From: Onthophagus taurus
Lineage: Eukaryota > Arthropoda > Insecta > Coleoptera > Scarabaeidae
Direction: 5' to 3'
NCBI RefSeq assembly: GCF_036711975.1
Contig: NC_091968.1
Coordinates: 6,200,001-6,264,000, forward strand
Length of the DNA stretch: 64,000 nt
Program-made: the position numbers and the translations under genes
Shown: positions 2,372 through 59,480 of the stretch, piece by piece
How positions within the stretch are numbered: the stretch's first letter is position 1
Layout: the number at the start of each line of letters is the position of its first letter
The notes under the pieces: generated by a model
Told to the model about the DNA's origin: nothing
Database searches by the model: none
What the model saw: only the letters and a program-made list of their open reading frames with translations

Positions 2372-2722
2372 TTCGACCATGGTGTCTAATACTTCGATAT
2401 TTAGAGAATTAAATGTTCTACAGGATAGAATAGCAAACTTTTTTGTACATATATAGTTCTTTTGTGTTACGGTGACGGTACACTAGTTTTGCGATTAAGT
2501 GAAAAAAGGGAAAAATGCCAAAATATTGAATTTGTTGAGTTGCGTTAGGCTCAAATATACTGAACATGAACCGTTATTATGTTTCTTAATTTAAGATTTT
2601 CCACATTTTTGGGGATATCTCGAAAACTGGACGTGATGGAGAAAAACTTTACTTTTTTACGTTATAATATCGCAGCCTTCAAGGAAAAAATTGATTAAAA
2701 TTTGATAAAAATAAAAACTTAC

Positions 2723-5700
2723 TTCATGGCACTTAACAAAATATGCACAATCTCTTGAGTTTTATGCAAAATATTCTTAAATTTCTCAAGAATTAATCCT
2801 TTCTCATTCGGAGTGTTCGAATTTAAAGTTTGCGAATCCATTTCGATAAAACCCGGCTTTAAAACTTTCAACATTTCATAACCCCACATTTGTAAAATAC
2901 TCGATTGATTCACCAATAACGCGCAACATTGCTTCGTTAATTTCGTCCAATAATTATCATCCTTCTTGAAAATATACTCATGGTTTACATATTTAATCAC
3001 GCTCCCGATGTGTTGAAGAAACGGTAAAAGTGTCGTCTTAACTTGAACATCTTTCAAAACTTGTTCAGTGAGATAAAGCCAAATCTCCATAAAACTATTA
3101 TGAACGTCTTCGGCAAAAACATCTTGAAATTCCTTAACTCGTTTTGAATTTGGATCTAATTGTTTTAAATAACGTTCTATCCGGGCGAATAAATTATACA
3201 CGGACGCAATAAAAGATTGAATCTTAAATTGGAATTAATAGATTTATTTTTTTGTTTTTAGATTTATTTTAATAATTACTTACCTGGATATTTTTATAGA
3301 CAACTTTGATATCGGAAATTTTTAAAGCCCATGATGTTAATGATATTATAATGAAATCCCAATGTTGGTCGTTTAAGTTGTCAATATCGAAATTGTCTAA
3401 GATTTCTATGCAAAAACGCAAGATTTCGGTTGATTTCTCTGTATCACTCCATATGGCAAAGTTTCTAAAAATAAATTATTATATTGTGAACCCACATTTA
3501 TACCAAGGTTGGGCATAATGCACTAAAAAATAAATGCAATAAGCGTTTCACTACCATTACTTCTTCAATGGTAGTTAAAACACGAATTTCATTATCACTG
3601 AATATTTGGTGATTGTGAAAACCTTTAGTGATAATTAACATTTTTCATTAACATAACACTGCTTCTTGAAGAATAAAAATAAGACTATACATATAAGCTT
3701 AAGCAGTATAAGGAAATGTATTAATAAGTCGTAGAAAAGTCGTTCAAAAAAGAAGTCGTGATTAATTTCGCTACATTGACTTAATGACATCGTGTAATTA
3801 CACCGCCTATACACCACAGTTGAACTACTTGCAGTAAAACTGTACTGCAAGTAAAGTATTCAGTACTTTTCTACTTTAAGTAGTTTACTGCCAGTACTTT
3901 CAAATTGTAGGTACTTAATACTTGTACTTTCAGTATTTACCTTAAAAAGTACTGAACACTTGTTACTTGATTGACATAAGAAGTAATTGAAGAACTATTT
4001 GTTTACTCCAAGTAGTTTATCTACTTCCAGTACTTTCAATAGTAAGCAAAACATCAATTTTTTTAAGTTTTCTTCAAAATCCTAGATAATCTTAGGAATT
4101 CTATGAAATCTTCTGAAAATACTAAGAAATGCCTACATATATCTTTGGGAATAACTAAAAATCGTGCACATTTGTAATAACCTCTAGATATCCTTCCATT
4201 TTTTCTAAAAAATTAATCTTAAAGCTTGGATATACTAAAAAACCTAAGATATTTGTAAAAATCGATGGAAATCTTTGAAAATGTGTCTAAATTCCTCACA
4301 ATTTTTAGGAATATCTAGCTGTATATACAAATTTTTGGAAAGCGTTTCAAAATCCCTAGATGTGTTTGGAAATTCTTATAAAATCTTCTAAAAACTTGAA
4401 TTTCTGTAGAAATCTCTGCTAAATCCTAGATAACCTTAGGTATTCTGAGAAATTTTTATGGTATACTTGAAAGTTCGTTGAATTCTTTTGAAAATTTCCT
4501 AGAAATACTGAGAAATGCCTTCATAAGTGTCTGGGAGGAATTAAAAATCCTCGGCATTAATAACAATCCCTGGATATCCTTGGAAATCCTTTTAATTTTT
4601 CTAAAAATCAATCAAAAACCTTGGATACAATCAAAAATCTTTAGATATCCATAAAAATCAATGGATATCTTTGAAAATGTGTCTAAATTCCTCAAAATTT
4701 TTAGAAATACCTAGTTGTATATACAAATATTTGGAAACCGTTTCAAAATCCCTAGATATGTTTGAAAATTCCTATAAAATCTTCTAAAAACTTGAAATTC
4801 TGTAGAAATCTCTGCAAAATCCTAGATAATCTTAGTTATTCTGAGAATTTTTTATGGTATACTTGAAAGTTCATTGAAATCTTTTGGAAATTTCTTATAA
4901 ATACTTAGAAATGCCTACATAAGTGTCTGGGAAGAATTAAAAATCCTCGGCATTTCTAACAATTCCTGGATATAGTTGGAAATCCTTCCAATTTTTCTAA
5001 AAATCAATCAAAAACCTTGGATACACACAAAAATTCTAAGATATCCGTAAAAGTCGATGGATAGCTTTGAAAATGTGTCTAAATTCCTTAAAATTTTTAG
5101 AAATACCCAGTTGACAATAAAAATTATTGGAAATCGTTTCAAATTCCCTAGATATGTTTAGAAATTCCTATAAAATCTTCTAAAAACTTGAAATTCTGTA
5201 GAAATCTCTGCAAAATCCTAGATAACCTTAGGTATTCTGAGAAATTTTTATGGTATACTTGAAAGTTCGTTGAAATCTTTTGGAAATTTCCTAGAAATAC
5301 TGAGAAATGCCTACATAAGTGTCTGGGAAGAATTAAAAATCCTCGGCATTCCTAACAATCCCTGGATATCCTTGGAAATCTTTCTAATTTTTCTAAAAAT
5401 CAATCAGAAACCTTGGATACACTCAAAAATCCTAAGATATCTGTAAATATCGATGGATAGCTTTGAAAATGTGTGTAAATTCCTTGAAATTTTTAGAAAT
5501 ACCCAGTTGACAATAAAAATTATTGGAAATCGTTTCAAATTCCCTAGATATGTTTAGAAATTCCTATAAAATCTTCTAAAAACTTGAAATTCTGTAGAAA
5601 TCTCTGCTAAATCCTAGATAACCTTAGGTATTCTGAGAAATTTTTATGGTACACTTGGAAGTTCGTTGAAATCTTTTGGAAATTTCCTAGAAATACTGAG

Positions 5701-8700
5701 AAATGCCTACATCAGTGTCTGGGAAGAATTAAAAATCCTCGGCATTCCTAACAATCACTGGATATCCTTGGAAATCTTTCTAATTTTTCTAAAAATCAAT
5801 CAGAAACTTGGATACACTCAAAAATCCTAAGATATCTGTAAATATCGATGGATAGCTTTGACAATGTGTCTAAATTCCTTAAAATTTTTAGAAATATCTA
5901 GCTGTATATACAAATTTTTGGAAAGCGTTTCAAAATCCCTAGATGTGTTTGGAAATTCTTATAAAATCTTCTAAAAACGTGAAATTCTGTAGAAATCTCT
6001 GCAAAATCGTAGATAACGTTAGGTATTCTGAGAAAATTTTATGGTACACTTGAAAGTTCGTTGAAATCTTTTGGAAATTTCCTAGAAATACTAAGAAATG
6101 CCTACATAAGTGTCTGGCAAGAATTAAAAATCCTCGATATTCCTAACAATCCCTGGATATCCTTGTAAATCCTTCCAATTTTTCTAAACATCAATCAAAA
6201 ACCTTGGATGCAATCAAAAATCTTTAATTTTTTTTTATATCCATAAAAATCAATGGATATCTTTGAAAATGTGTCTAAATTCCTTAAAATTTTTAGAAAT
6301 ACTTAGTTGTATATACAAATTCTTGGAAATCGTTTCAAAATCCCTAGATGTGTTTGGAAATTCCTATAAAATCTTCTAAAAACTTGAAATTCTGTAGAAA
6401 TGTCTACAAAATCCTACATAACCTTAGGTATTCTGAGAAATTTTTATGGTATACTTGAAAGTTCGTTGAAATCTTTTGGAAATTTCCTAGAAATACTAAG
6501 AAATGCCTACATAAGTGTGGCAAGAATTAAAAATCCTCGGCATTCCTAACAATCCATGGATATCCTTGGAAATCCTTCCAATTTTTCTAAAAATCAATCA
6601 AAAACCTTGGATACACTCAAAAATCCTAAGATATCCGTAACAATCGATGGATAGCTTTGAAAATGTGTCTAAATTCCTTAAAACTTTTAAAAATACCCAG
6701 TTGATTATGAAAATTATTGGAAATCGTTTCAAAATCCCTAGATATGTTTGGAAATGCCTATAAAATCTTCTAAAAACTTGAAATTCTGTAGAAATCTCTG
6801 CAAAATCCTAGATAACCTTAGGTATTCAGAGAAGTTTTTATGGTATACTTGAAAGTTCGTTGAAATTTTTGGAAATTTCCTAGAAATACTAAGAAATGCT
6901 TACATAAGTGTCTGGGAAGAATTGAAAATCCTCGGCATTCCTAACAATAACTGGATATCCTTGGAAATAGCTTTGAAAATATGTTTAAATTCCTCAAAAT
7001 TTTTAGAAATACTTAGTTGTATATAAAAATTTTTGGAAATCGTTTCAAAATCCCTATATGTGTTTGGAAATGCCTATAAAATCTTCTAAAAACTTTAAAT
7101 TCTGTAGAAATCTCTGTAAAATCTTAGATAATCTTAGGTATTCTGAGAAATTTTTATGGTGTACTTGAAAGTTCGTTGAAATCTTTGGGAAATTTCCTAG
7201 AAATACTAAGAAATGCCTACATAAGTATCTGGGAAGAATTAAAAATCCTCGCCATTCCTAACAATCCCTGGATATCCTCGGAAATCCTTCTAATTTTTCT
7301 AAAAATCATTTAAAAACCTTGAATACATTCAAAAATCCTAAGAAATTCGTAAAAATCTATGGATATTCCTTGAAACCTCTAAAAATACTATAATAATATT
7401 TGAAAATTTTAGAAAATTGCTACAAAATCCTAGGATGTATTTGGAAATGTTCATAAAACCTTTTAGAAAACCTGAATATCTATAGAAATCTCTGGAAACT
7501 CGTTGAATTCCTCAAAAATCCTGAGAAATTCGGATGGTATCTTTGAAAATCTTATGGGAATACTTGGAAATGCTTACATGAATCTTTGAGAATCGTTAAA
7601 ATCCTAGGTATGGATATCTTGTTTTCTTGGATATTCTTGGAAATTGGTACAATTTCTGTAAATATCCTTTAAAAGCTTTCGATTCACTCAGAAATAACAG
7701 GAGATATTTGAACATTTTAGGAAATTGTTGCAAAATCTCTAGATATATTTGGAAAATGTTGCAAAATCTTATAAAAATCGAAATATGTGTAGATATTTCT
7801 GGAAAATGATAAGTTTAAATAAATAACACTTTTCTACCGCGTGTGATTACTCAGTACAGGAGAATTATTTAAATATACAATATACAGTATGTCCGTAAAG
7901 TAACGAATATAGGCGATAAAATCATTATAAACGATTTATGGAAACATCCCTGAAACGGGTCTAAAGATTCAAATTTTTTGCAATAAAATTGTTTGGTGTA
8001 GCTTTTAAATTTCTTCCGCCATTTTTAAGCGAGTTATGACGACATTGGTATTTTTTTCAAACGGGAATCTGCCATTTTTATTACGGAATATGAAAGCAGA
8101 TTTTTTCTGAATCTAGTACAGTCAATATTAATATTGCTTACATAAGAAAATTTTCGAGAAAAATTACTTAAAGTTTAACTACTTCAGATTTGTTGACATG
8201 ATGAAAATACCAGTAGCCATGAGTAACTATGACCAAACTATTTTACCATCTCGACGTATCCATATTCCAGGAAACACATTATCTAGATGTCGCCAATTAT
8301 ATCGGATATCTATGAAACTAAAAAACTTTTACTACAATTTTTTTCATCTATTAGTCATTATTAGGTTGAGAATTATAAATTCAAATGTCATGTTTCACTA
8401 AAAGTTTTGTGATAGTGGATTTTTTTTCACTATGACTAAATTTTCAGTGACAATGAATTTTGCATTTTAACTATTACTATATGAACAGTGGTAGTGCAAA
8501 AATGCCCAAACCTGATTTATACTCATTTATACAATCCATAAAATTCTTCCCCAACGCTTTTTTTATAATCTTCAATTTTCAAAAATAACTCATCAACTTT
8601 CTCCATATTTTCCCCTTTCGAAAAGTTCCTAAAAGCTACAATTTCTTCTATTAAAGGCACTTTGGTTTTTAAACGATTATTCGATGGGATATCCCCGATT

Positions 8701-11700
8701 ATATTTTTCCAAGAAATATTATACAATTTACTTCGATCGTTATACCATTTATAAAAACCTAATTTCGATTGGTTTTTAAATAAAACGTTATAATCATAAA
8801 TCGTTTTTTCCCATAACCAACATTGCTCGATTTTCATCAATAAATATTCGTTAATATCATCAAGTTTTTTTATGATACTTTCAAGATATACAAAACAAGT
8901 TATTGAAACATCTTGTAATTGGTCATAAATATCCGTGCATTTATAATTGTCTAAAATTGTTGCGATAAGGGTGTAATCATATAAAAGGTGGCATAAAATA
9001 TCGAAATCATCCGTTGTTTGTTCGATTACTAAAGTTGGATCAATATCATCATCAATTTCTTCTTCGTAATCTTCCTTTTCTTTTTCTAATTCATTAATAT
9101 TAACTTCATTAGTTACCTCATCTGGTTCGAAAATTAAATTAAACCTAGCAAGACAGGTAGAATAAATTTTTAATTTTAAAAGTAAATATTCAGAAAACAT
9201 TAATAAATTCTCCAAATTAATTTGGTCTGAGGAAACGTTAAGTTTTTCATTTGGTGATGATAATTTCCCATTAATATATTCACCAACAGTTCCCATTTCA
9301 ACAATTTTTTTCCTCCAATCGTTTATAAATTCTTTATCAAACAACAACTCGGCGGTATAAATTTGTTCATCAGACGTTTTAACACTTTTAATTAACCCCA
9401 TAATTAAATTATAAACCGATTCGATATCCAACCTTTTATTAGAACCGAATAATTTCGTTTCAATTATTTTTGAGAAGTCCAAAATAATTTCTTTTACCTC
9501 ATCAATCGAAACGACGCCGCATAAAATCTCGATTGAATCGTAAACGGAAGTTTGCAATTCCCAAATTGTATCTTTTGTTATTGTATCTTTTTCGTACTTG
9601 GCGTTACAAAGTAATTTAAAGATTTCTTTTAATAAATCACTTCCGTATTTTAATTTATTATTCTCTGTATATAAAATCGAACAAAGATAAGCGGTGAAAC
9701 TGCCGGTGTTATCTAAAGAGTGCATATGTTCTAATGGGGATTTTAAGCATTTTGTGAGAATTTCGATGATTTTTTGAACGGTGGAGTTACTAACGAATAA
9801 TTCGCCTTGTTCTCCTTCAGTAAAAGCCATTTTTAACAAATTACTCGCATCATTTTCGCTTTCTGAATTAACAATATCTTGGGCTAATTTCACTAAGTAC
9901 TCATCAACTTTCGGATTACTCAACCATTCGTGAATAACATCGTCTTGATTATAAGGATGAGATAAAGCACTTTGTAAGCACCAACCGAAACGATCCATTG
10001 GTAACTAAAACAAATTTAATTAATAATTAATTTAATTAAAATAAAATAAAACATACAGTTTCGAAAGATTCCAATATCTTTAATTTATCTTTATTTTCGC
10101 AATATTTTAATAAAATAAAAACCAATCCAACCACAGATTCGGTACAAATATACCCGGAATTTAACCATTTCGATAATAAATTATCGTATAAATCTACTAG
10201 AGCACCATCTTTATTGATTACTTCGTTTAATTTAAAGAAAAAGTTTTTATTTTCAAATTCGGTAATAACACTGTATAAATGCTCGACTAATTCTTTAGAA
10301 AGCCTCTCATTTATAACGTTAACGTACAACTCGCAAAGTTTAAAAACCAAGCCGTTTAACGCATCTAAATAAGTTTCATCACATTTTTCTTTTGATTTAA
10401 TGGTACTTTGTTCCGTAGTGATTAAATTTTCTGTAAATTGCACTTTCATTTGCTTTTTTGGTTTCGAAATGTGTTTCAAGGACATTAAAAATTCAATTTG
10501 TTTCAGTGCCAATTCGGATAAAGCGTTTTTTTCGCGACTTTGCTCCTCGTTCATTAATAACCCTTCGAATAACGATTGAACGTTACTCCAAAAATAATCT
10601 AAATATTTTCCGTAATTAGAAAAATCGGTTTCGTTTCGATTTCTATGCCAATATTGGACTAAATTTGAAATTTGATTAAATAATGATTTATAAACGGATT
10701 GATTTTCCATTAAACCCCATTCAATCATTGGAAGTAATTCGGTTTTAATTAATTTTTCACATAAATACATGTTGGATTGATTTTTCATTATTAAATATTG
10801 TAAACATTCCATGTACGTTGTACAAATTGCTGTGGATTCTGATCTGATTGAAATCGTGGTTTTTAATTTTAATCCTGTTTGGAGGTTATCAAAATATTTG
10901 AAATAAAATGTTTCCGCATCTATCGTCGGTGGTAAATTTGATAATAAAGGTAATAAATTTGGGAATATCATCGTAGCATTTCCTCGTCCTGCTTCACGAA
11001 GTAATTTATATAGTTTTGGAAGAACTAATTTTTCTATGCTGACGTATGTCCACCAATTCTATAACAAAATTATTCAATTTCATTAAAAATCTATTATATT
11101 TGTTAGCTCTAATTTTAGTTGTTATTAGGAGGAAGGGAAAGGAGGAGTTCAGTAACGATATAGTATAGATGGCAGAATGAAGGAGTCACTTTATGAATTT
11201 GTTGGGAAGGGTAGATGATAGGCAGGCAGTCACGGAGGAGGAGACAACTGAGGAAGATTTGACAACATTTTTGAGGGGGTTGAGGAGGAGAAAGGCACCG
11301 GGGGAGGTACAGAACGAGGTATGGTTGGCGGCGACAGGAAAGGTGAGAGGGAAGCTGTTAGAGACGTTGAACAATGTGTAGAGGGCGGAAGAGTTTCCAA
11401 ACGGTTGAAGGATGGGTATAATATGTTCAGTAGACAAAAAGGGAAGTAAGAGAGCAGTGAAGGGGAATCAGCCTACTCAACTCCTCATACCACATTTATG
11501 CGAAGATACTGCTGGGAAGATTGGAGGAAGAGATTGAGATAGAGGAGATGTTGCTGGATGGATAGGCAGGTTTTAGGAAAGGTAGAGGGGCGATCGATAA
11601 CGTTTTTTGTATGCCCTATTCATAGACTTGAAGACGGCATTCAAAAGGTGGATATGGAGAAGTTGTGGGAGGAGATGGACAGGAGGAGTTTGAAGGAGAT

Positions 11701-14700
11701 ATACAGAGAAACGACAGCTAGAGTTAGAGTAGGAAAAGCGATGAGCGAAGCGTTTTGGACAGGGAGGAGTCTGAGACTGGGATGTCTACTGAGCCCCAGC
11801 CTTTTTTCCCTGTATACGGCAGATTTGGAAGCTAGGCTGGAGAAGGGACAAATAGAAGTGGTGATGGAAGGAAGAAAGATTAACGTGCTAGCATACGCAG
11901 ATGCCATGGTGGTTGTGGCGAAGAATGCGACGGAAATGAGAGGGATGGTGAGAGACTTGGAGAGCTACACTGTTGGAAATAATTCATGAGCACACCCTGT
12001 ATAATCTGAACGCGTGAAGATAAATCCATAATATTTGCGGAGCATAAAGGTTTACTGTAGACGAGTTTATTTAGCGAGTTTCAAGTTTTTCTGTCTCGGC
12101 ATTGTTGACTGAGCCGCCCTTCCAAGTGGAACATTCTGTCGCTATAGAGACCGAAGTGGCAGAGTTGCGCCGCTCTCCATACCAAATTTCATTGCGCTAG
12201 ACACACGCGTTTAGATTATACATTGTAAATTATTTCCAACGGCGAAGAAGTTGGAGGTGAAAAAGAGGGAAGAATGGAGATGGAGATTGAGGAGGTGAGA
12301 GAATTAACTTATCTGGGGTACTGGTACAGGGGCGATAGCAAGGACGCGGCGCATGTGAGGGAGATGGCTAAAAGGGCAAATAAGGTGATGGGATGACAGA
12401 GTGTTTGGAAGGGACATCAGAAAGAGAAAGATCATGTTTGATGGGTTGGTGAGGAATGCAATGATGTACGGGACGAAAGTTTGGGGATGGAAGAGGCAGG
12501 ATATTCTGGAGGACGTACAGAATCGGTACTGGAGGTGAGTTCTGGGTCTGGAGAGATAGACACCGGGGTATATTGTGAGGAAGGAAGTGAAAGTGGATGA
12601 AATGAGGGTGGAGGCGGGCAGAAGAGCAATTAAATATGAAAAAATAATAGATAAAAGACCATACTGCGGAATCTTGGGGGAGCGTTGGAAGGAAGTTAGG
12701 AATTGGAAGATTAGATATGGTAATGGAGAGAGGAAGGAATATTATAAAAGGTCAGGTTATTCGGAGGCAGAGATAAACAACAGAAGAAGGGAAGGGGTGT
12801 TGATGTGGGGGAAGATAAGTGACAGAGATAGGAACGTCCATAGGCAGGAGAGAAGGACGCAGATAAGAGAGGAAAGATATGGAGACATAATGACGGAAGG
12901 ACTTTCAAAATACTTGGTGAAGGACGGGAGTGAGGAAGGGAAGGGGTTGGTAGCCAGATTTCGGTGTGGTAATAAGGAGAGAGCGAACAGGTATTTGGCG
13001 GATGATGTGGGGAGGTAGTGTCGGTTGTGCGAAAAGGTTTGGTAGACGATGGAACATATGTTGAGGGTTCAAATTAAATTTTTTAATTGATTTTTATTTA
13101 ATATAGTAGACGCCACGAGAGCTGGCAGTAAATCATCATTTTCCGCTCTTACAAATGGCATACGTAGTTCACAAACCGCTAGAGAGTAATGTGTGTTAGA
13201 AAGAGATAGCATTAGTTTAATATGTCTGCTGTACAATTCAAATAGCCACGTCGAAAAAGTACGTCTGTTCTTCTAAGGGATGTAACTCTATAATTATAAC
13301 CTCAAATCGAAACGGCTTGTGAGCGTTGTCATGAATCTGTCAGTGTTTTCACAAGCCGAAAATGTTTTCTTTGAAAGGAAAATCATTAAATAATATCTTT
13401 GACAATGTTTGACATATAACCTCCATTACTAACATAACCTACATTTAAATGTATGTGGTGAAATAATCTAAGTCGTACGTCCATATCTTGATTCATACCA
13501 TTTTTAAGCGATCTGTCACTGCCAGCTCTCGTGGTTTCTACTATATACAATATTTAATCTCAATATTTAATATAGTGAAATACACATTTAGTATTTCAAC
13601 TGATTCTATTCAAATTTGAGAAACGGAGGTTTTTTGGCATAAGAAAGACACGAGACCATTATGGAGTCCGTTTTACTATAGCCGGTAGAGGGTGCTCTCT
13701 AACGTATTCTTTCCGGATTAAAATAATAATAACTTTTCTGACAGTATACTTTTTGGCTTTTTGAATAAAAATTCTTATTCCCTGTCCTTTTTTAAGCAGA
13801 AAGGTTACCTACTCTTATCAAAATGCGCTAGAGTCGATCGTTTTCAAGAATATCCGGTTTTTATTATTCCATATAGACCATTTTTTTAAGAGTATAATTA
13901 AAGATAGTTAAAACAATGTATGTCATGGAGACAAAGTAGATAACATTAGTTAACTAACTAATGTTTTAGTTCATTATATCACGTGTCAAATAATAATCTA
14001 AATAATAAAAGAAAAAAATAGAGAAAGTAATGGTATTTAAAAACGGCCTGATGTCATTACAAGCATTCCTAATCCTATTAATAAGTTCGTTCCATTGAAT
14101 TAAAACCTGCAGATGGTGGTGCTCATGCGACTGGTCCGCCACGACCAATCCATTTTAAAGGAAAGGTTGTCTAGCCAATTTCTTACCATCCTACTATGAT
14201 GAGGTGGACAACCATCAAGTTGACACCAGGCGTTTCTTCTTAAAGCTAAATCAATGTCATCCCACATATTGGCATGTTCAGCTACCAAAAATTACAAGAA
14301 AGCCGCAGCGGTTAGTTGTGGTGGCAAAAAGTATAGGGCGAAAAGATGATTATTATAAACAGCTACCCAGACGTTGACACCAAATTTATGTTGGAAGTTT
14401 CGTCGCCGAATTGCGTAGGGATACCAAAACATGTAAATTGTGAAAGTTTACAATGCAAAGTCTTGTGAAACACGATTCATCGTTCCACATTACATTTAAA
14501 AAATCTCAATTGTTGGCTGATGCTTTAGCGAATCCACCGACAAAACGTTACAATCCTTGCAAGGGTTGTAAATGATAAGCATGTCTATGATCATGTTTTA
14601 AAAGGCGATAAAGACGCGCCGTAGATATTCGTAAGGCATTCGAAACTCTTCTAACACTCGTAGACCCAGAGACGCCACCTCTGGAGAGACGCCCTCGAAC

Positions 14701-21255: not shown

Positions 21256-22144
21256 GTTCTCTTCGACTAAAATATTTTCAGATTTCTAGCACTTCCAATT
21301 ATACCGGAAGTCGCCACCTACTTTATTTTTTTAAATGGAACACCCTATATATTTTTACATATTTGGATTTGATTGTTTTCAAGGTTTATGAATAACTTTA
21401 CTTTTTGCAATTTGATTCGGTCATTCTCGAGTTATTCGAATTTTTCTAGAAAAATCTGCTCCAGCCTTTGATTATATATAATATGGATTGAGCCAACGAG
21501 AGAGATAGCTTGCGCAAGGTGATCGAACCGAGATAGACATAGAAGCGTACTGCCATATAATGGGTGTACTGATAGAAGTGAGATAGATATAGAAGCGTAC
21601 TGACATATAATATATCTATCTTTGTTACACTTTCACATTATCGCTTTCCATCTGCGTCTATTCACCTTGAGCAACATTTTTGTTAGTATATATATTCAGT
21701 TAGCTCAATCCATATTATATATAATCAAAGGCTCCAGCAGATTTGTTAAAAAAAGTCAGAGAACACTCGATTTTTAGGATATCCAATTTAGAATTCAGAA
21801 CATGCGTAAGCAACATGATGAAGTATGTTTTGGTACCAAGCATGGCTGTCTAGAACGTTTGGTCACTTTACTACGGTACGTTAACTTTTCGAAATTTGGA
21901 AGTACCATAACTTCATTTTTTTAAATGGCACCCCCCATATTTTATTACTTAGTCGTCTTCGGTGTCTCATTTTACATCTTTTATATCCTATATGTCAACG
22001 GTGGGCAAATGCGGCTCTTTGAAAGATTATTTGTGGCTCTATAATTTTTTTTTGCCTTGTTCCATTTAAAAAAATAAAGCAGGTGGCGACTTCCGGTATA
22101 ACCGGAAGTGCTAGAAATCTGAAAATATTTTAGTAGAAGAGAAC
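21256..22144. mobile_element. Foldback element with 85-bp arms, containing a MITE
   Basis: 21256-21340 and 22059-22144 are inverted copies: GTTCTCTTCGACTAAAATAT and GATTTCTAGCACTTCC, then TACCGGAAGTCGCCACC and ATTTAAATGGAAC-type sequence. Inside, 21464-21497 and 21699-21732 are a second pair of 34-bp inverted repeats (GCCTTTGATTATATATAATA at the outer ends), so a roughly 270-bp MITE is nested within. The spacer of the inner element has a tandem doublet (GAGATAGACATAGAAGCGTA and a near copy). No coding. The right end abuts the satellite array starting at 22145. Confidence 0.7.
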
Positions 22145-24867
22145 TTAAATTTTAGAAATTAGGTTCAAAAGAAAAAGGTTTCAGCTTTAATTTGATATCA
22201 GAATCGTTTTATATCTTCCATAAATAACATCTCCAGTTTTATTTCAAATTTATATTGACATTTAGAGATTAGGTTCAAAAACCTAACTTTATCTAACAAA
22301 TTTTATAATGTAATGTAACATGTTTCATACACCATCTTAAACAGGAATGTTTTAGGTTTAATTTGATACGAAAATCGTTTCATAATTTTCATAAATAACT
22401 GCCAGGATTTTTTAAAGTTGAGTTGACATTTTGAAATTAAGTTGAAAACATAGGTAACTAAAACATCACTCTATCTAAAAAATTTGTAAATCTAACATAA
22501 AATGTTTAATACGTCATCTTAAAGAGGAATGTTTCAGCTTTAATTTGATACCAAAATCGTTTTATAACTTCCATAAATTACACCTCCAGCTTTATTTCAA
22601 ATTTCAATTGACGTTTAGAGATTAGGTTCAAAAACCTAACTTTATCTAAAAAATTTTATAATGTGATGTAACATGTTTCATACACCATCTTAAATAGGAA
22701 TGTTTTAGCTTTAATTTGATACCAAAATCGTTTCATAATTTTCATAAATAACTCTTCCAGGATTTCTTAAAGTTGAGTTGACATTTTGAGATTAAGTTGA
22801 AAACATAGGTAACAAAAACATCACTTTATCTAAATTTTTTTTAATCTAACATAAAATGTTTAATACGTCATCTTAAAGAGGAATGTTTAAACTTTAATTT
22901 TATACTAAAATCGTTTTATAACTTCCATAAATAACACCTCCAGTTTTATTTCAAATTTCAATTGACATTTAGAGATTAGGTTCAAAAACCTAACTTTATC
23001 TAAACATTTTTATAATGTAATGTAACATGTTTCATCGTGTTTCATACACCATCTTAAACAGGAATGTTTTAGCTTTAATTTGAAACCAAAATCGTTTCAT
23101 AATTTTCATAAATAACTCTTCCAGGATTTTTTAAAGTTGAGTTGACATTGTGAGATTAAGTTGAAAACATAGGTAACAAAAACATCACTTTATCTAACAT
23201 TTTTTTAAATCTAACATAAAATGTTTAATACATCATCTTAAAGAGGAATGTTTCAGCTTTAATTTTATACCAAAATCATTTTATAATTTCCACAAATTAC
23301 ACCTCCAGTTTTATTTCAAATTTCAATTGACATTTCGAGATTAGGTTCAAAAACCTAACTTTGTCTAACAAATTTTATAATGTATTGTAACATGTTTCAT
23401 ACACAATCTTAAACAGGAATGTTTTAGCTTTAATTTGGTACCAAAATCGTTTCATAATTTTCATAAATAACTCGTCCAGAATTTTTTTAATTTGAGGTGA
23501 CATTTTGAGATTAAGTTGAAAAGATAGGTAACTAAAACGTCACTTTATCTACATTTTTTTAAAATCTAACATAAAATGTTTAATACATCATCATAAAGAG
23601 GAATATTTCAGCTTTAATTTGATACCAAAATCGTTTTATAACTTCCATAAATTACACCTCCAGCTTTATTTTCAATTTATATTGACGTTTAGAGATTAGG
23701 TTGAAAAACCTAACTTTATCTAAAAATGTTTATAATGTAATGTAACATGTATCATACACCATCTTAAACAGGAATGTTTTAGCTTTAATTTGATACCAAA
23801 ATCGTTTCATAATTTTCATAAATAACTCTTCCAGGATTTTTTAAAATTGAGTTGACATTTTGAGATTAAGTTGAAAACATAGGTAACTAAAACATCACTT
23901 TATCTAAAAAATGTTTAAATCTAACATGCAATGTTTAATACATCATCTTAAAGAGGAATGTTTCAGCTTTAATTTGATACAAAAATTGTTTTATATCTTC
24001 CATAAATAACACCTCCAGTTTTATTTCAAATTTCAATTGACATTTAGAGATTAGGATCAAAAAGCTAACTTTATCCAAAAAATTTTATAATGTAATGTAA
24101 CATGTTTCATAGACCATCTTAAACAGGAATGTTTTAGCTTTCGTTTGGTACCAAAATCGTTTCATAATTTTCATAAATAACTCTCCCAGGATTTTTTAAA
24201 ATTGAGTTGACATTTTGAGATTAAGTTGAAAACATAGGTAACTAAAACATAGCTATATCGAACATTTTTTTAAATCTAACGAAATGTTTAATACATCATT
24301 TTAAAGAGGAATATTTCAGCTTTAGTTTTATACTAAAATCGTTTTATAACTTCCATAAATAACACCTCCAGTTTTATTTCAAATTTCAATTGACATTTAG
24401 AGATTAGGTTCAAAAACCTAACTTTATCTAAAAAATGTTATAATGTACTGTAACATGTTTCATAGACCATCTTAAACAGGAATGTTTTAGCTTTAGTTTG
24501 GTACCAAAATCGTTTCATAATTTTCATAAATAATTCTCCCAGGATTTTTTAAAATTGAATTGACATTTTGAGATTAAGTTGAAAACATAGGTAACTAAAA
24601 CATCGCTTTATCGAACATTTTTTTAAAACTAACATATAATGTTTAATACATCGTCTTAAAGAGGAATGTTTCAGCTTTAATTTGATACCAAAATCGTTTC
24701 ATAACTTCCATAAATTACACCTCCAGCTTTATTTCAACTTTCAATTAACATTTAGAGATTAGGTTCAAAAAGCTAACATTATCTAAGAAATTTTATAATG
24801 CAATGTAACATGTTTCATACATCATCTTAAACAGGAATGTTTTAGCTTTAATTTGATTAATTATAAC
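22145..24867. repeat. About 355-bp dimeric satellite array, 7-8 units
   Basis: Two related half-units of about 177 bp alternate. One has TGTTTCAGCTTTAATTTGAT and ATAACTTCCATAAATAACAC; the other has TGTTTTAGCTTTAATTTGAT and ATAATTTTCATAAATAACTC. The first type recurs at about 22159, 22527, 22881, 23247, 23603, 23958, 24310 and 24662, a period of about 355 bp. AGATTAGGTTCAAAAACCTAAC forms a small palindrome in each dimer (shown here only in part: TTAGGTTCAAAAACCTAA). The array is broken at 24868 by unrelated sequence and a last scrap resumes at about 25376-25420. Non-coding. Confidence 0.85.
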
Positions 24868-26294: not shown

Positions 26295-29200
26295 ATGATA
26301 CGATCAATTTTCTATAGTTTTTTTATTTTAACGTTAATTACAAGCATTCGGGCAAGTTTAGAAATAGTGAGTGATGATGAATTATTAAATTTAATAAGAA
26401 CAGAAAAAAATGTAGTGGTATTATTCTGTAAGTATAATATTTAGTTTTAACAACTGTTTAAAGTAGTGATTTATCTTTTATTAACAGCTAAAAGGGATTG
26501 TGAACGTTGTGAAAACTTTGAAACAGAATTATCGAATTTAAGAGAAGATTTAGTGGATACTTTAGGTGCTTGGGTTGTTAAAACGACAAATAGTCACATG
26601 ACTAGGTTGTATACTCCTACAAGAGAACCAGCAATCGTTTTCTTTAGGCATGGTGTACCTTTGTTATATGATGGACCTCTCAATGATGAGGCTATCTTAC
26701 AAAACTTTAATGATAACAAAGATCCCATTGTTAAAGAATTAACTGATGATACTTTTGAACATTTAACACAAGTTGCAACTGGTGCAACAACTGGAGATTG
26801 GTTTATTATGTTGTAAGAATCATTTTATATATCACAAAAAAAAAGTTTTAATTCAAAAATCATCATGTTGCTTAAAAATCCACAATTTTTTTTTAATCAA
26901 CATTAAATCACTTTATTTTTGGTTAAAACGCATATTTTTGAGTGAAATACAGTTGTTCCTTAGGTTTTTGACACACAACAACTAAAATGTCATTGTTTAC
27001 CATCTATAAACTAAAGATAACTTAAAATCTTTAACTTATTGGTTCTTGAAGGCTAGATACTGTTGGCAAAAGACTAATTATTGCTCTCAGAAGATTAAAT
27101 ACAGCTAGTAAAATACTAAAAACTGCTTGGAAAGAGGAAGTACTATTTCAAAAAGTTACCTACTGCTTCTAAAATGCTAAATACTGCAGAAAAAGACCAC
27201 AACTTACTTGGAAAAGACTAGATACTGTTTTCAAAACAATACCTATTGCTTCCAAAACGCTAAACACTGCTGTTAAAGATTTTGACCTACTTGGATAGGC
27301 GGAATACTGCTTCCAAGACTATTTATTGCTTTCAAAGACTTTAATAATTGTTTGGAAAAGAGATATGCTTTCCAAAAAGCTACCTAATGCTGCCAGAATG
27401 CTAAATACTACTGGAAGAGACTAATAACTACTTGGAAAGAAGAGATATGCTTTCCAAAAAAAATATCTACTGCTCCCAAAATGCTAGATACTGGTGGAAA
27501 AGATTACAATCTGCTTAGAGAAGACTAGATAGTGCTAACAAACAATTACAAACTGATTGGAAAGATGAGATACTGCTCATAAGACTACTAACTGTTTTCA
27601 AAGCGCTATATACTATTACAAAAGATTACGACCTGCTTGGAGAAGACTAAATACTGCTGGGAGAAACTATTGTCTGCTTGGAAAGACAAGATTTGTTTCC
27701 AAAAGATTATTAACTACTTTTAGAATGCTAAATATTGTTGGAAAGACTACTAATTGCTTGGATAAAGCTAGATATTGTTGACAAAGAGTATTTAATGCTT
27801 TCAGAAGATTATGTACTGCTGCCAAAACACTACTAAGTGCTTGGAGATTAGAATACTACTGGTTGAAGACCATTTACTGAAACTATTCTTCTGTTGACTG
27901 ATATCTTTCTGTGTCCCTTCCATTACAGATTTAAAAATTGCTGCTACAACACTTGATTCTTTGTCACCCAGATTCGACATATCATTTTAGAGAGGGGTAG
28001 GGCCTAAATAGGGCCGTTAAGTATTTTTTTTATTGGCTTATTTGAAAGTTTTTTGAAATTGATTGACCCAATATTTTTTAATTTTTTATTCTGAGGCTTA
28101 GTTTCTCAAAAAAAAAATAATAATAAAGTTTGAAAATACAGGGCGCAATCAATAAAATTCCTGGAGAGAGACAATACTACGAATCTTATGCGCTAGAAGA
28201 AAACATAGAACGTCTGTGATTTCTCTCTTCTTACTTAAAACGTCATCTGGAGCCGGGGGTGGGGAATTTTAAACTTTTACATTAATTATTGCAAAAATTA
28301 AACAAATTTTGAACGTGAAAACTTTACTAATCGATTTTTTGAAAGACGGTGTTTCTAATCGATTGACTTTAATGGCCTTATTACTATTTCAAAAAGTTAG
28401 CTACTGCTTCTAAAATGCTAAATACTGCTGATAAAGACCACAACTTGCTTAGAAAAGACTAGATACTGTTTTCAAAATAATACCTATTGGTTAAAGGTTC
28501 TGACCTACTTGGACAGGCGGAATACTGCTTCCAAGACTACTTATTGCTTTCGAAGACTTTAATAATTGTTTTGAAAAGAGATATGCTCTCCAAAAAACTA
28601 CCTACTGCTGCCAGAATGCTAAATACTACTGGAAATGACTAATAACTACTTGGAAAGAAGGGATATGCTCTCCAAAAAAGGTACCTGCTGCATCCAAAAT
28701 GCTAGATACTGGTGGAAAAGATTACAATCTGCTTGGAAAAGACTATATACTGCTAACAAACAACTACAAACTGATCAGAAAGACGAGATACTGCTTCCAT
28801 AAGACTACTTATTGCTTTCAGAACGCTATATACTACTAAAAAAGATTACGATCTGCTTGGAGAAGACTAAATACTGCTGGGAGAAACTATTATCTGCTTG
28901 AAAAGACGAGATACTCTTTCCAAAAGACTATTAACTACTTTCAGAATGCTAAATATTGTTGGAAAGACTACTAATTGCTTGGAGGAAGCGAGATATTGTT
29001 GGCAAAGACTATATAATGCTTTCAGAAGATTATATACTGCTGCCAAAACACTACTAAGTGCTTGGAGATTACAATACTACAGGCTGAAGACTATTTACTG
29101 AAACTATTCTTCTGTTGAGTGATATCTTTCTGTGTCTCTTCCATTATAAATTTAAAAATTGCTTGTATAACACTCGATTATTTGTCACCCAGATGCGACA

Positions 29201-35689: not shown

Positions 35690-37610
35690 CAGGGTTCGAC
35701 TGATTTAAATCATGATTTTAATCAAATGATTTATTTATTTTAATCAATGATTTAAATTAAAAACAAAACTGAAAATTAAAGTGCACTTTACTACAAAATT
35801 AAAAAAACATTTAATACAAAAATTAAGATTCATTGTAATACTTATATAAGAAAACAAGTTTTCCTGCCTTTTCAACACCTAACTTGTTTCGTAAAGTAGA
35901 GTGAACAAGCCCAAATGTTGAAAATATTCTCTCAACAGAAGCAGATGAACAAACCGCACATAAAAATTGCTTTAATATTGGCAGTACCTTCTCTACTTCA
36001 GCAATGTGTGTTTGTGATACCCACCATTGTAAAGCACTTACATTACATAAGACTTCCTCCGAAAACATTACTGATGAAAATGGTTCCATTTTTGCTTCTA
36101 GTTTTATAATTAGCGGTAGTAAACCGGTATTAGCATACATTTGATTGATTGTATTTAAGGCCTCCTCTTTTTATACAGATGTTAACTTATACATAGTTTT
36201 AGTAATATCTAAAATATAGGCTATATAATAGTTAGACGTAAGTGCCTGCTTATACCGTTTATCAAAAACTTTCATTTGTACAGATGATAATTTTTCCTCG
36301 AGTAATGTTTTCAATTCTTCCCATACTTCCACTGCATTAGAGAGGAAAGCATTCTTTTTTTGTAATTTGTCAAGTGCTATAGTTATGGGTTTTAAGACAT
36401 TCAAATAATCTTCCGCTGAGCGTTTGAGACCAATGTTTGAAACTTTTTTGTATATTGTCGAATCTATTTCGTTTTTATTCTCATCACACACTTTTAATAG
36501 TTTATCCCATTGACTTACATATACTTCCAAACAATCTGCCATACTATTCCATCTCACATCACTTGGCAGCACTAATGCTTTTCCATCAAGCTCGTTAATT
36601 GATTATTTCTAAAATATTTTATAATTTGTGTAACGTGCTCTTTGATATTTGTTACTTCTAAATCTTTGCAAAGTAGGTTTAAAAGATGAGCTGAACACCC
36701 ATAAGATATCACTGAAATGCTGGGGTCCAATTTTTCTTGTAAGGTTTTTCGCATTAGTGCCATATTAGCAGCATTATCTGTTACAAATGATGTCACGTTA
36801 CAGTTATATTTTGATTTACATGAGGAAATTATATTGCAAGCAATTTCAGTTAAATAGTCACTTGTATGGGGATTTTCGGATGTATCTATAGTTTCATATA
36901 AAAAAGAGTGTCCAGTTTCAGTGGTTATACTAGCGCAAACTATAGGTTCATTTCGTACATTAGACCAACCATCAATAGATATGTTTACGCAACACCCAGT
37001 AAGACTTCCACGACATTTAGTTTTCTCTTCTTCGTAAATTTGTTCCAAAAGTGTTGTAGAAATTGTTTTTCCAGAAAGGGGATTATACCCGGGTCTTAAC
37101 AATTCAATTGCTTTTTTTACTTGTTGATTGTCCATACATGTAAAGCTGCTGTTTGTTGCAAATACAGCTTTTACAATTTGTTTATCTATTTCTTGTTTTT
37201 TATCAATATCCGTTCGAACAATAAAGCTTTCCAAATTTGTATTAGCATTCGTTTTCCGTTTTTTACCTACAACAGCCGAATCATCCTCAGCAAATAAAGT
37301 CAAAGATGTAGATGAGCAAGCGCTTGCAGGTCGTTTTTGAGAGGTGTTAATTGAAAACTGTTCTTTACTAGCAATGGTTGATTCTGATGAGTTTTCAATT
37401 CCTATAGAACAAGATTGAAATAATTGAAAATAGTACTATTTTATTCATTTACGTCGTTTTAAGTTGCAATAAATACTATTTACCTTCAACTAAATTACTT
37501 TTTATGTTACTTGGTCCAGGGTCTCCTCTATCAGAGATTTTGAGTTTGCACTTCTCATGGCGTTCTTTTATCCTTTGAACTAACGTCAGTAAAAGCACAA
37601 GTCACTTAGG
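35690..37610 (-). pseudogene. hAT transposase gene, nearly full length but broken
   Basis: The left end CAGGGTTCGACTGATTTAAA at 35690 looks like a hAT terminus; I could not find its partner on the right. The minus strand encodes, from the N-terminus, a BED-like piece (VQRIKERHEKCKLKISDRGD near 37600-37540), then 37303-36572 with CVNISIDGWSNVRNEPIV (catalytic Asp block), SFVTDNAANMALM and YGCSAHLLNLLCKDL, then after a frameshift DVRWNSMADCLEVYV (36570) down to about 36171. After a stop, 36140-35823 carries the dimerisation region with LCAVCSSASVERIFSTFGLV. Frameshift and stop between blocks make it inactive unless suppressed. Confidence 0.8.
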
Positions 37611-39900: not shown

Positions 39901-41534
39901 CATTTAAAATAACGAAGTTATGGTCTACTGCCGGTAGACCGGAAGTGGTGGCCATCTTGAAAATATTTTAGATCGAAAGTTCCGAATGAACAACTGATGC
40001 TACCAAAATTTCAAACCGTACGAATAGTGGAATCTGAAAAAGTTCTAACGAACCAGTTACGTGACATCTGAAGTTAGCTATCATATAATAGACAAATGGA
40101 CAACTTCATGGTGTTCTTTCATGATGTATTCTTTATTAAAAACATTTAAAATGAGTTCAAACGTGATGCATTTATCTCGAGAAACAACAAAGTTGTAATA
40201 GAGAATATTAAAGTTGACAACATTGAAATTAACAACATAATTTTGAAATATTAATACCAACCTTGAGTTTTCACGACAATTACAAATATGTCAAAATTGA
40301 CTTTGACATTTCTAACCGGAAGTTGACGATAACTTCATTAATATTGAAGATACATATGTCGTGTTTGTACTTATTTTAAAGGATTTTTAATGAAGATTAC
40401 AAATATGTCAAAATTTAGGTTGACATTTTAAATCTGAAGTTAGTTATCATACAATAGACAAATGGACAACTTCATGGTGTTTTATCATGATGTATTCTTT
40501 ATTAAAAAATCCTTTAAAATGAGTTCAAAGATAATGTACTTATCTCAAAATCAAAAAAGTTTGAATAAAAAAACGTTAAACCCGAAGTTAGCAACAATGA
40601 AGATAGCAATTTAAAAATTAAATATTAATACCGACCTTAATTTTTAATTTTTTTTTATTGTATTTTTGTTTTTGTGATAAATTTTAAGACATTTTATAAA
40701 AATTAAGAATTTGTCAAAATGACATTGACATTTCAAACCGGAAGTTGCTTACATCTCGACTAATATTGGAATTAAACGTATCATGTTTGGCCTCATTTTA
40801 AAGGATTTTTCACGAAAATTACAAATATGTCAAAATTGATTTTGACATTACTAACCGGAAGTTGACGATAACTTCATTAATATTGAAGATAAATATGTCG
40901 TGTTTGTACTTATTTTAAAGGATTTTTAATGAAGATTACAAATATGGCAAAATTGAGGTTGACATTTTAAATCTGAAGTTAGTTATCATACAATAGACAA
41001 ATGGACAACTTCATGGTGTTTTATCATGATGTATTCTTTATTAAAAAATCCTTTAAAATGAGTTCAAAGATGATGTACTTATCTCAAAATCAAAAAACGT
41101 TTGAATAAAAAAACGTTAAACCCGAAGTCAGCAACAATGAAGATAGCAATTTAAAAATTAAATATTAATACCGACCTTAATTTTTATTTATTTTTTATTG
41201 TATTTTTGTTTTTGTGATAAATTTTAAAACATTTTATAAAAATTAAGAATTTGTCAAAATGACATTGACATTTCAAACCGGAAGTTGCTTACATCTCGAT
41301 TAATATTGGGATTAAGGCAGCTTACACACTACTGCAACGCAACTCACACGACCGACTCAACCAACTAGTTGCATCAGTCTTATCCATAAGGATTTCGTAG
41401 AAGCATTCACACTAGCGCAATCCGACTGATGCAACCATACGACTGGTTGTATGCGACTGGACATGTCGGTCGCACCGCGATCAGTTGCATTGGTTTTTGT
41501 ATGTATCGTCATTATTTTCTTTATTTTAAGCAAA

Positions 41535-43252
41535 ATGGATGTTGAAGCATTCAGCGTTAAATTAGTGCAAGAAATAGAGAAATATCCGGTATTGTACAAT
41601 TATAATCTTAGTGATTATAGCAAGAGAGATGTAGTTGATTTGGCGTGGGAGAATGTGGGGAAGAGAATGAATGACACAGGTAAGAAAGTGTTTTTTTATT
41701 TACTTTATTTATTTAAAAAAAAATTAGTACAACATGAGCTTATATGCAATTAGCTTACACTAGTAATTATGAATTTTCGCCATCTACATAATATTTCCAC
41801 TGCCATGGCAAAGGATTGATTTGAAAGATAATGTCTCAAATTTGATGGTGTTGGATTCCTTGCCTCGGGTACATTCTCATTACCAGCTTTATCCATATCT
41901 ATGTCATTGACAATGTTTAACTCCGGTTCTTCATTTTCTGATTCTCGAAATTCATATAGTACGCCTTCTTTTTTCCTAATAAAATTATGAAGTACACAAA
42001 CACTGCGTACTATATTGTTGATTTTATTTTTATCTGCACAAATTATTGGATTGGATAGAACACGAAATTTTTTGCACATCATTCCAAACGTGCACTCTAC
42101 AGTCTTCCTGGCCCTGCTGATCCGGTAGTTGTAAATACGTTTTTTATTGTCTAGAGTTCTTCTTGGGAAAGGTCGTATTAAACGAACTTGCAGTGGGAAA
42201 GCTTCATCACCAATAAAGTAGAATGGGAATTTAATTCCATTTATATCTTGTGGAAGTTGTCTGGAAGTGGGAAATTGCATATCACCCTGTTTTATCCATT
42301 GTCCCATTTTCAACATTTTAAAGATACCGCCGTCGCTATTTCTTCCAAGGCTCCTAAGCAATTTCCAACATTCCATAATTGATAAAATCGATCAGAAATA
42401 GCTAACCATTCATCCTCATTCGGTAGTTTCATATAAATTGGTTGGAGTACGTCCCAAATTGCCTTGGTAGTGGTTCCAATTATTTCACTGACTGTGCTGA
42501 CCCCTCTCATAAAATATAGTGATAAGTCTGAAAATGTACTGCCTGTTGCCAGATACCTAAAACAAAATATTATAATAATCAACCGATTGAAATTTATTAA
42601 AAACAGTAAATTTAAAATTTTTATTTTAAAATTAACATAATTTCTTTCCAGCTGCCAATTGTAAGGAGAAGTGGCGAAACATTCGAACTGTGTTTACAAG
42701 AAAATTGAAAATTCCGAAGAGTGGATCTGGGAGACAGAAAAAATACTATTTAATGGACTATTTGCACTTATTGGTGCCTTTCTTAGGAAATAAGAGTAGT
42801 GTTTCTGGAAATGTTCCATCCCCCCGGAAAGCCTATCAAGTACCGAACCAGAATATGAGTTGTCTGAACAACTTACCAATGAAGATGGCTCTTCAAATAA
42901 TCCTAGTGAACAAGGAGATCTAGAAGTTCCAGGAACATCTTTCAAAAGACCCAAGCAGCAAACGAACAGAGTTGATGATGCTTTTGTTAAATACCTGGAA
43001 GAGAAACGCAGGCAGCCCAAATAAGAGAATCCTCGAAGAATGTTTCTGCTGAGTTTGCTTCCTGACGTCCAAAAATTAAGCGAACAAAAAATGCGTCAAT
43101 TTCGAAGACAAGTTTTGGAAGTCTTGGACTCATTATTAGATGATACACCCACACCCACATCGTATGTCCAGCACAATGCTCCTCCTACCCCTTCTCAACC
43201 ATACGGTACTCATGTGTACACTTCTACTCCATCTGACCGAGGGGACACTTAG
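41535..43252 (+). pseudogene. Harbinger MADF-BESS DNA-binding protein, frameshifted
   Basis: Exon 1 (41535-41679) encodes the first half of a MADF domain: MDVEAFSVKLVQEIEKYPVL, DYSKRDVVDLAWENVGKRM. After an intron with GTAAGA and TTTCCAG borders, exon 2 starts at 42652 and completes it: CKEKWRNIRTVFTRKLK, GRQKKYYLMDYLHLLVPFL. A C-run near 42821 needs a frameshift to reach ESLSSTEPEYELSEQL and KRPKQQTNRVDDAFVKYLEE. A TAA near 43022 then interrupts the frame just before a BESS motif, MFLLSLLPDVQKLSEQKMRQ. MADF partners of Harbinger transposases bind the element ends and help nuclear entry of the transposase. The damage looks recent. Confidence 0.8.
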
Positions 43253-44709: not shown

Positions 44710-45554
44710 CAGGCTGCGGCAAAACTCCCTCCCTAATTTGAAAGTTGAATAAAAAACAGATGGTACAAATTAACGAAACTGTATTAACATGAATGGAATC
44801 TGCTTTTACAAGTTTCGTTTTTTGAACAGTATATCGCTCAAGTGTTTTCCTTCGTTATCAATGCATTGCCGAATGCGAGTTCGAAAGTTCGCCATTACTC
44901 TAATCAACATTTCTTGAGGAATACGAGCAATCTCTTCTTGAATCGTTTGTCGTAGGGCTGGCAGACTCCTCGGACGATGTTTGTAAACTTCAGCCTTAAG
45001 AAACCCGCACACAAAAAAATCATAGGGAGTTAGGTCTGGAGATCGTACTGGCCAGCGGATGTTTCCGCGCAAACACATCAAGCGTTCTGGGAACAGCTGC
45101 CTCAGTTCTTGAAGAGATCTCCTGCTTGTGTGAGTAGTGGCCCCGTTTTGCTGAAGCCACTCATTCTGTTGAATCTGTATCGCATTGAATCGTGGTGCCA
45201 TAGAAGTTTGAAGCATTTGATTGTATCCTTCTTCAAAAAAGTACGGGCCGATGATCGCGACACTGTTAATCACTCACCACACGGTAACACGTCTACTATG
45301 CAGAGGCTTTTCATGGATTTCCCGAGGATTTTGTGCACTCCAATAACGGTAACTTCCGAACTCGCATTCGGCAATGCATTGATAACGAAGGAAAACACTT
45401 GAGCAATATACTGTTCAAAGAAAGAAACTTGTAAAACATAATAGCGTAACTTCCCATTCTGTAGATTCGATTCGGGTTAATACAGTTTCGTTAATTTCTA
45501 CCATCTGTTTTTTATTGAACCTTCAAATTAGGTAGAGAGTTTTGCCGCATCCTG
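44710..45554 (-). mobile_element. Mariner-like element, copy 2
   Basis: 845 bp between TA dinucleotides with about 90-bp inverted ends (CAGGCTGCGGCAAAACTCCC at the left, CAGGATGCGGCAAAACTCTC read inward at the right). The minus strand holds a 155-residue open frame, 45273-44806, equal to the C-terminal part of a mariner-like transposase: WLQQNGATTHTSRRSLQELR, DIRWPVRSPDL-type block (here NIRWPVRSPDLTPYDFF), CGFLKAEVYKHRPRSLPAL, ending NEGKHLSDILFKKRNL. The N-terminal DNA-binding half is missing; instead 45274-45470 contains a jumbled repeat of the C-terminal coding region. It is a deletion derivative of the same family as 15907-16637. Confidence 0.82.
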
Positions 45555-56639: not shown

Positions 56640-57780
56640 AAAAATTGTATTTGATTTATTTGTAGAAATGTTAAAAATATTCAAATTATTCTAAATAAAC
56701 GCATTTTTTAAATCAATTTGATATCTCATGTATTTTTTGAGATATAAATTTTTTAAATTCGGTATTAATAAATGTTTATAATGAAACAAAAAAAACGTTA
56801 TCCACAAGCAGTGCTGTTAAATACCCGGGTATTTATTTTCAAGGGAAAATTTCCTGGATGTATACCCAGGGGTAAAGACATACATCTTTAACAAATTGTA
56901 TCTCAGGATCCAATTGAGACATCGATATGAGATAAAAAACATTTTATAGCAAATTTAATTAGTATTTAATCCGGGAAAGGTGATTTTTTCAAATTTTGAG
57001 GTTATAATGATTTTAATTCAACCACAATCATGAATATTGTTTTGAATGACATCAAAATTTAACAAATAATAACTCAAAAACTAGTAGAGGTATTAATATG
57101 ATATAAGGAGCATTCGACAGCAAATTCTATTGGTATTTAGTGCTTATAAGGTCATATCTTCCAATATTCAAATGTTAGGCCAATGATTTTTTGATTTTAA
57201 CCTCACTCGTAGATGTAATATCCAAAGAGATCAAACTTTAATAAATTGTACCTCAGGAACTAATTGAGACATCGATATGAGATAAAAATAATTTAAATTG
57301 TTGACTTCAAGAATGCAGAATTAACTAGGTGTCTCAATTCATTACAAAATACATTTAATGCAACACTATCATTAGGAGGAATATAGATACAATAAATATG
57401 CAGTTTGCTATTACGCTTATCGCAATAGTGTTACACAAATGGCTTCATTGGTTAGAAACCAGTCTGACCTCTGAACACTGCGAAGACTCGCACTAACACC
57501 TATCAGCACACCACCCCCTGAAACACAACACCCGGAACCGCACCAACGATCTCTTCTGTAGATGTTGTAGGAAGTAGGAAGAACCTCATGTTTTCGGCAG
57601 GCGTAGCACGTCGACGCTGGTATTTAACCCATTCTTATAAATAGTAATCAACTTGATGCGAACGCCACGGACGTTTTGATAATATACTATATAATGATGA
57701 TGAGTATGTAGATACATCAACTCACACTTGACATAATCCAGTCAATAGAAAAGGCTGAAAACGAAATTCATTAATTTTCA
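56640..57780. other. Intergenic, old repeats
   Basis: Two related segments at about 56880-57000 and 57060-57300 share words (ATTGAGACATCGATATGAGA, TTGTACCTCAGG-type), suggesting a decayed tandem repeat. 56773-56807 is one member of a direct-repeat pair with 59631-59663. No coding sequence. Confidence 0.35.
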
Positions 57781-59275: not shown

Positions 59276-59480
59276 CATTATCTGTATTCTTTCTAGTATC
59301 TTTCTTGCCATTGCAATGTCTTTCTAATTTCCCACAATTCAGCCTAGCCTCTTTTTTTCACCCTATTCCATCTCTTCCAGTACTTTCTGGAAGAGACTGG
59401 AAGACTTTTCTTATCATTCCAGTATCTCTCCATTTCGTATTACCAAAATCTTTCCTATTAAGATTTTATACAATTTGGAA
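59276..59480 (-). pseudogene. LINE-like 3' scrap (also at 61930-62115)
   Basis: CTGTATTCTTTCTAGTATCT and TTGCCATTGCAATG, with ATTCCATCTCTTCCAGTACT, are shared with 61936-62115. The minus-strand reading there is rich in Arg, Lys and Trp (WNDKKQKSTGRDG, RLEKHCNGKKDTRK), in the style of a LINE C-terminal tail, but no diagnostic motif remains. Both copies adjoin the 343-bp satellite. Confidence 0.4.

Follow-up and report, generated by a model that had tools for sequence, protein, structure and literature searches.

Elements of the hAT superfamily are described as 2.5 to 5 kb long, with terminal inverted repeats (TIRs) of 10 to 25 bp and target site duplications (TSDs) of 8 bp (PMC3942097), and tandem repeats have been reported within miniature inverted-repeat transposable elements (MITEs) of Xenopus and other organisms (PMC9659126, PMC12628747). 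The presence of tandem repeats inside nonautonomous DNA transposons is already published, and the case presented here illustrates cleanly a kind of event that is known. It lies in a 64-kb stretch of the Onthophagus taurus genome (NC_091968.1, positions 6,200,001 to 6,264,000; hereafter, the window), where a 5,011-bp element at window positions 3504 to 8514 occupies an intron of the listerin gene, LTN1. We consider it likely that this element is a nonautonomous transposon, probably of the hAT superfamily, that inserted into the intron carrying a tandem array grown in its own lineage, with the array probably begun before the insertion.

A bounded element in an intron of LTN1

The element is flanked by exact copies of the 8-mer ATTTATAC at 3496 to 3503 and 8515 to 8522, and its terminal 12 bases (CAAGGTTGGGCA and CAGGTTTGGGCA) match at 10 of 12 positions as inverted copies. 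A reading of the window made from its letters alone (here, the sequence-only reading) had proposed a 5,011-bp unit with perfect 8-bp duplications and matching inverted ends, and this was borne out. Gapped alignment of the outer parts of the two TIRs (21 bases on the left, 3504 to 3524, plus strand; 22 bases on the right, 8493 to 8514, minus strand) gave a score of 11, whereas the best of 20,000 random pairs drawn from the window scored 9. Further inwards, a subterminal inverted repeat of 76 nt (3546 to 3621, plus strand, and 8424 to 8499, minus strand) is 74% complementary, with the best 50 bp at 82% (E value, 3e−8). By eye, the inverted repeat is interrupted by extra left-end bases between its outer and subterminal parts. 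The probability that one fixed pair of 8-mers agrees by chance is 4e−5, and a scan of the window for exact 8-bp duplications coupled with CA-starting ends matching at 9 or more of 12 positions returned three pairs, compared with 0.5 on average across 60 randomized sequences keeping the dinucleotide steps. The top-ranked pair (48243 to 51410) encloses hAT transposase open reading frames (ORFs) and served as the positive control; the element in the LTN1 intron ranked second.

Within the window, no second copy of the arms or of the array was found at an E value of 1e−3. The outer 21 and 22 bases recurred at a single site with six mismatches (43109), and sites matching the outer 12 bases at two mismatches (21996, 31485, 43759, 60232, and 63956) were at chance level. 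Searches of virus and prokaryote contig collections also returned no match to the element, a result that says little given that these collections lack eukaryotes.

LTN1 was modeled for the part of the gene inside the window, the remainder lying past the window start. Five minus-strand exons (19189 to 18257, 11058 to 10057, 10004 to 8533, 3464 to 3284, and 3222 to 2723) are separated by introns of 7,198, 52, 5,068, and 61 bp, and when spliced they form a single stop-free frame of 1,362 amino acids. The first ORF matched the Pfam family Ltn1_1st (E value, 4.3e−15), a further match to Ltn1_1st had an E value of 2.4e−14, and the best PDB match of the spliced fragment was listerin, across residues 1 to 823 (E value, 5.3e−107). 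The exon upstream of the element (8533 to 10004, minus strand) belongs to this spliced frame and PDB match. Downstream of the element (exon at 3284 to 3464, minus strand) the frame continues, and the exons beyond the element hold a second listerin stretch that is colinear but weak (residues 1147 to 1281; i-Evalue, 1.9). Judged from the predicted protein, the interrupted gene is LTN1, with the exons past the element assigned by frame and by this weak stretch.

The element sits in the third of these introns (3465 to 8532, minus strand; 5,068 bp). Removal of the element together with one copy of the duplication leaves GTATAAATGAGTATAAATGTGGGTTCACAATATAATAATTTATTTTTAG, a 49-bp intron with GT/AG ends, so that the predicted empty-site intron starts GTATAAATGAGTATAAATGTGGG. 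On the donor side 18 bp of the intron are kept and on the acceptor side 39 bp, each count including a duplication copy. Growth of this intron from about 49 bp to 5.1 kb, by an insertion 18 bp from the donor, had been put forward in the sequence-only reading and agrees with the values found here. The same reading likened the empty intron to the other short introns of LTN1, which are indeed 52 and 61 bp long, and made no mention of the remaining intron, of 7,198 bp. The 8-mer is doubled beside the donor, where the right duplication copy is followed by TC and then by a third copy of ATTTATAC (8525 to 8532) that covers the splice donor of LTN1 (minus strand, GTATAAAT). Splicing from the duplication copy instead (8522) would, by eye, run into an in-frame TGA stop, and this site was rejected as the normal donor.

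Insertion of a transposon-type element is therefore supported as the source of the roughly hundredfold growth of this intron, from 49 to 5,068 bp, with its splice sites in place. A nonautonomous cut-and-paste transposon, probably hAT, would have inserted at ATTTATAC within the 49-bp intron, using transposase supplied from elsewhere in the genome. With the donor on one side of the target and the 3′ portion of the intron on the other, both splice signals would have survived, and the element would have become intron sequence that is presumably spliced out normally.

The internal tandem array and its age

Array-like sequence extends from 4096 to approximately 7806, covering 3,711 of the 5,011 bp (74%) of the element. 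The unit is 396 bp long and fits about 9.4 times into this span; it has an inner period of approximately 10 bp, and the outer units are degenerate. The sequence-only reading was right that the element is mostly array, although it gave the unit as 395 bp. The inner periodicity is evident as a self-match of 0.48 at lag 10 (mean, 0.29), and the arms show none. These nonrepeated arms (3504 to 4095 and 7807 to 8514) flank the array inside the defined ends of the element, and their match to the unit was not above that of shuffled controls. Seven arrays of the window were tested for flanking ends (that at 62260 to 64000 was left out), and only the one at 4036 to 7850 kept convincing ends; the remaining six had low-complexity end matches of 10 of 14 positions, or none.

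The seven core units share 89 to 95% pairwise identity (mean, 92%) and are 93.4 to 96.2% identical to leave-one-out consensus sequences. Using the same type of consensus, with edges trimmed to exclude nonarray bases, identity was found to decay outwards on both sides. On the left it falls from 89.3% (4240 to 4379) to 76.6% (4096 to 4240), and on the right it runs from 95.6% (7078 to 7260) through 81.9% (7261 to 7455) and about 71% (7456 to 7762) to 75.0% (7763 to 7806). Neighboring units have identical blocks of up to 121 nt in common, and units four apart have blocks of up to 86 nt, lengths for which no null model was built. A uniform middle with decaying edges is what one would expect to see in an array grown in place within the element and kept uniform at its center by unequal exchange or conversion. 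The 396-bp array would thus most likely have arisen within the element lineage by one of these processes.

Whether such growth began before or after the element entered LTN1 bears on the first alternative, in which a short transposon, its arms measuring about 0.6 and 0.7 kb, was already in the gene when the array began to grow there. Decay at the edges fits local growth of any date, and the identical blocks (to be read with the limit given above) would point to late exchange among units. However, if the whole array postdated the insertion, the two copies of the duplication would have had as long to diverge as the outer units. The outer units are about 29% diverged (31% for those on the right), and the probability that an 8-bp duplication remains perfect after 29 to 31% neutral divergence is 0.05 to 0.07 (0.05 at the value of the right units); under the 7 to 8% divergence of the core units it exceeds 0.5. 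A perfect duplication beside diverged outer units suggests that the array had probably begun to duplicate before the element inserted, and growth entirely after insertion is rather unlikely. These values weakly hint that the start of the array preceded the insertion, with later growth of any date.

Superfamily assignment and alternative histories

Membership of the element in the hAT superfamily is likely from the length of its duplication and the sequence of its ends, which start with CA and which we take to resemble hAT ends. It is not proved, because no transposase was found inside the element, where the longest fully internal ORF (89 amino acids, and the only ORF scanned in Pfam) had no Pfam match. 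Of the hAT-like transposon that had been proposed, the exact 8-bp duplication and inverted ends stand, and the class itself is kept as likely.

An origin in another superfamily of TIR transposons that makes 8-bp duplications (P, Merlin, Sola1, Zisupton, or Mutator-like) is unlikely, given ends that look like those of hAT elements. Duplications of 8 bp are also made by the P, Sola1, Zisupton, and Mutator-like groups, and both the failure to find transposase in the element and an inverted region longer than is usual for hAT would suit such an origin. Merlin elements have duplications of 8 or 9 bp, TIRs of 24 to 462 bp, and internal tandem repeats, but they are described with GG ends (PMC8101967), whereas the ends of this element are CA.

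Several observations weigh against the account that we prefer, a probable hAT insertion with an array begun earlier. Six fragments of hAT transposase from the window were compared with the element using tblastn, and nothing convincing was found (best E value, 0.046 over 16 amino acids). The target ATTTATAC agrees with nTnnnnAn, the consensus given for Ac/hobo targets (PMC8961557), but by base composition about one-eighth of 8-mers would do so. The inverted region exceeds the 10 to 25 bp published for hAT elements, which the element otherwise fits. The dating argument leans on 8 bp, and core divergence of about 8% makes a perfect duplication unremarkable. Finally, when the ORFs at 8523 to 10004 and 2719 to 3234, on either side of the element, were searched singly, neither had a Pfam or PDB match.

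Another alternative holds that part of an existing genomic satellite was captured by the element and brought into LTN1. Helitrons have been described as capturing tandem repeats, and the same has been proposed for miDNA4, a MITE of Xenopus (PMC12628747). A captured piece should stay equally good up to its edges, though, and the outward decay of identity on both sides instead favors growth of the array inside the element; moreover, the unit has no further copy in the window. On these grounds capture is decidedly unlikely. The view taken in the sequence-only reading, that satellite DNA had moved as transposon cargo, stands as a hypothesis, as does the identity of the array as satellite DNA of this genome.

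The ends of the element could also pair as RNA. Their predicted pairing energy is −76.9 kcal/mol, compared with a mean of −30.5 kcal/mol (standard deviation, 6.8) in 300 shuffles, none of which was as low, and 274 control pairs of segments of the window 4.8 kb apart had a mean of −29.3 kcal/mol, with none reaching −76.9 kcal/mol. The corresponding values were −47.4 kcal/mol for the control hAT element and −19.6 kcal/mol for the insert in LTN1 intron 1. Cofolding of the intron's two ends, 300 nt each, gained −32.3 kcal/mol over folding them separately (60 shuffles: mean, −11.5; lowest, −24.4). Repeat pairing has been proposed to join distant splice sites in large vertebrate introns, and such stems are reported as few in fly, bee, and mosquito and as more numerous in beetle (PMC2773006). 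One might envisage a lineage of hAT elements in which 396-bp arrays build up and are spread into genes, with the paired ends looping the array out to leave an effective intron of about 57 nt. This reading, which draws on folding predictions, seems improbable. Any transposon with inverted ends folds likewise, and in the cofold of the intron ends the terminal bases of the intron, at the splice sites, are themselves paired, which could hinder splicing. The transcribed strand of the element contains one AATAAA motif, compared with about nine expected from base composition, and the other strand contains six; as the unit is repeated, this deficit is not independent evidence, and no claim is drawn from it.

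Last, the doublet ATTTATAC-TC-ATTTATAC (8515 to 8532) might be read as the footprint of an earlier hAT excision, which leaves two target copies with a 2-bp filler, making the present element a second visit, but this is very improbable: with six arrays masked, the window has 20 sites, counting this one, with 8-mer doublets at gaps of 0 to 4 bp, 3 of the 20 also fit nTnnnnAn, and the first visit would have had to find an intron of 39 bp, which is very short.

Other insertions in the window and known systems

LTN1 intron 1 (7,198 bp) contains a 26-bp repeat, matching at 25 of 26 positions, near its two ends (18206 to 18181 and 11128 to 11103). If the insert between them and one copy of the repeat are removed, 120 bp are left. 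A reverse transcriptase ORF (RVT_1) lies within the insert at 11543 to 11989 on the plus strand. Of the four LTN1 introns that the window contains in full, two would thus owe their growth to insertion, the intron 1 insert being a putative single element.

Further mobile elements and repeats were identified across the window. The hAT element at 48243 to 51410 has the exact duplication CAATACAG, the ends CAGTGGCGTAAC and CAGTGGTGTAAC, and minus-strand transposase ORFs (Pfam DUF4371 and Dimer_Tnp_hAT). A fragmented hAT transposase (DUF659 and Dimer_Tnp_hAT) is located at 35823 to 37435, and no matching ends with an 8-bp duplication were found nearby. Transposase ORFs of other types include a minus-strand DDE_Tnp_4 (Harbinger-like) ORF at 41750 to 42391 and, by eye, a mariner-type-like ORF without a Pfam match at 44806 to 45380; the stretch from 44860 to 45380 has a 12-bp inverted repeat and AATGCATT at both of its ends. 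In the region from 21996 to 24857, a 355-bp tandem array starts 180 bp past a lone hAT-like end (CAACGGTGGGCAAATGCGGCTC), for which no convincing right end was found. The arrays at 27401 to 29041 and 51543 to 52165, about 23 kb apart, have periods of 20 to 21 bp and 41 bp and similar units (beginning CTAAATACTGCTT), and those at 57763 to 59279 and 62260 to 64000 are built from a related 172/344-bp unit, the second crossing the window end. A second array-bearing element was considered at 40628 to 41177 (117-bp tandem repeat and 10-bp duplication) and rejected; this region (40560 to 41240) is instead a tandem duplication of about 540 bp with a 117-bp repeat, which mimics a TIR element with a 10-bp duplication.

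The element in LTN1 is a single bounded case that links, at base resolution, an insertion, an internal array, and the lengthening, with splice signals kept, of what had been a very short intron of a housekeeping gene. Should the 49-bp intron be empty in relatives and the array recur in other copies of the element, the array could be dated against the jump, and satellite-like repeats would be shown to reach genes by this path.

Nonautonomous hAT elements and hAT MITEs, for example the derivatives of BuT2 and, reportedly, Mar, are close comparisons. The LTN1 element resembles the BuT2 derivatives and similar hAT MITEs in its 8-bp duplication, CA-starting inverted ends, and noncoding interior (PMC3942097), and it differs from hAT MITEs in holding a 3.7-kb tandem array and in an inverted region beyond 10 to 25 bp. 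The literature matches listed, whose coverage is partial, included no hAT element carrying a long array at its center, and no priority is claimed. A central satellite-like array between element-specific arms is shared with the Cg_HINE elements of the Pacific oyster (PMC7492417), although those are Helentrons with many known copies, whereas the LTN1 element is probably of the cut-and-paste type and known from one copy. The TCAST transposon-like elements of Tribolium castaneum likewise place satellite-related sequence in TIR elements that lie close to genes or within introns; of 68 TCAST-like elements, counting both types, 29 are intronic (PMC3411249). In these elements, however, the satellite forms part of the TIRs, the duplication is 3 bp, and a long central array does not appear. 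An array able to lengthen inside a TIR element is also a feature of the Xenopus MITEs miDNA4 and Xstir and of Merlin families (PMC12628747, PMC8101967); these belong to other superfamilies, miDNA4 being a Tc1/mariner element.

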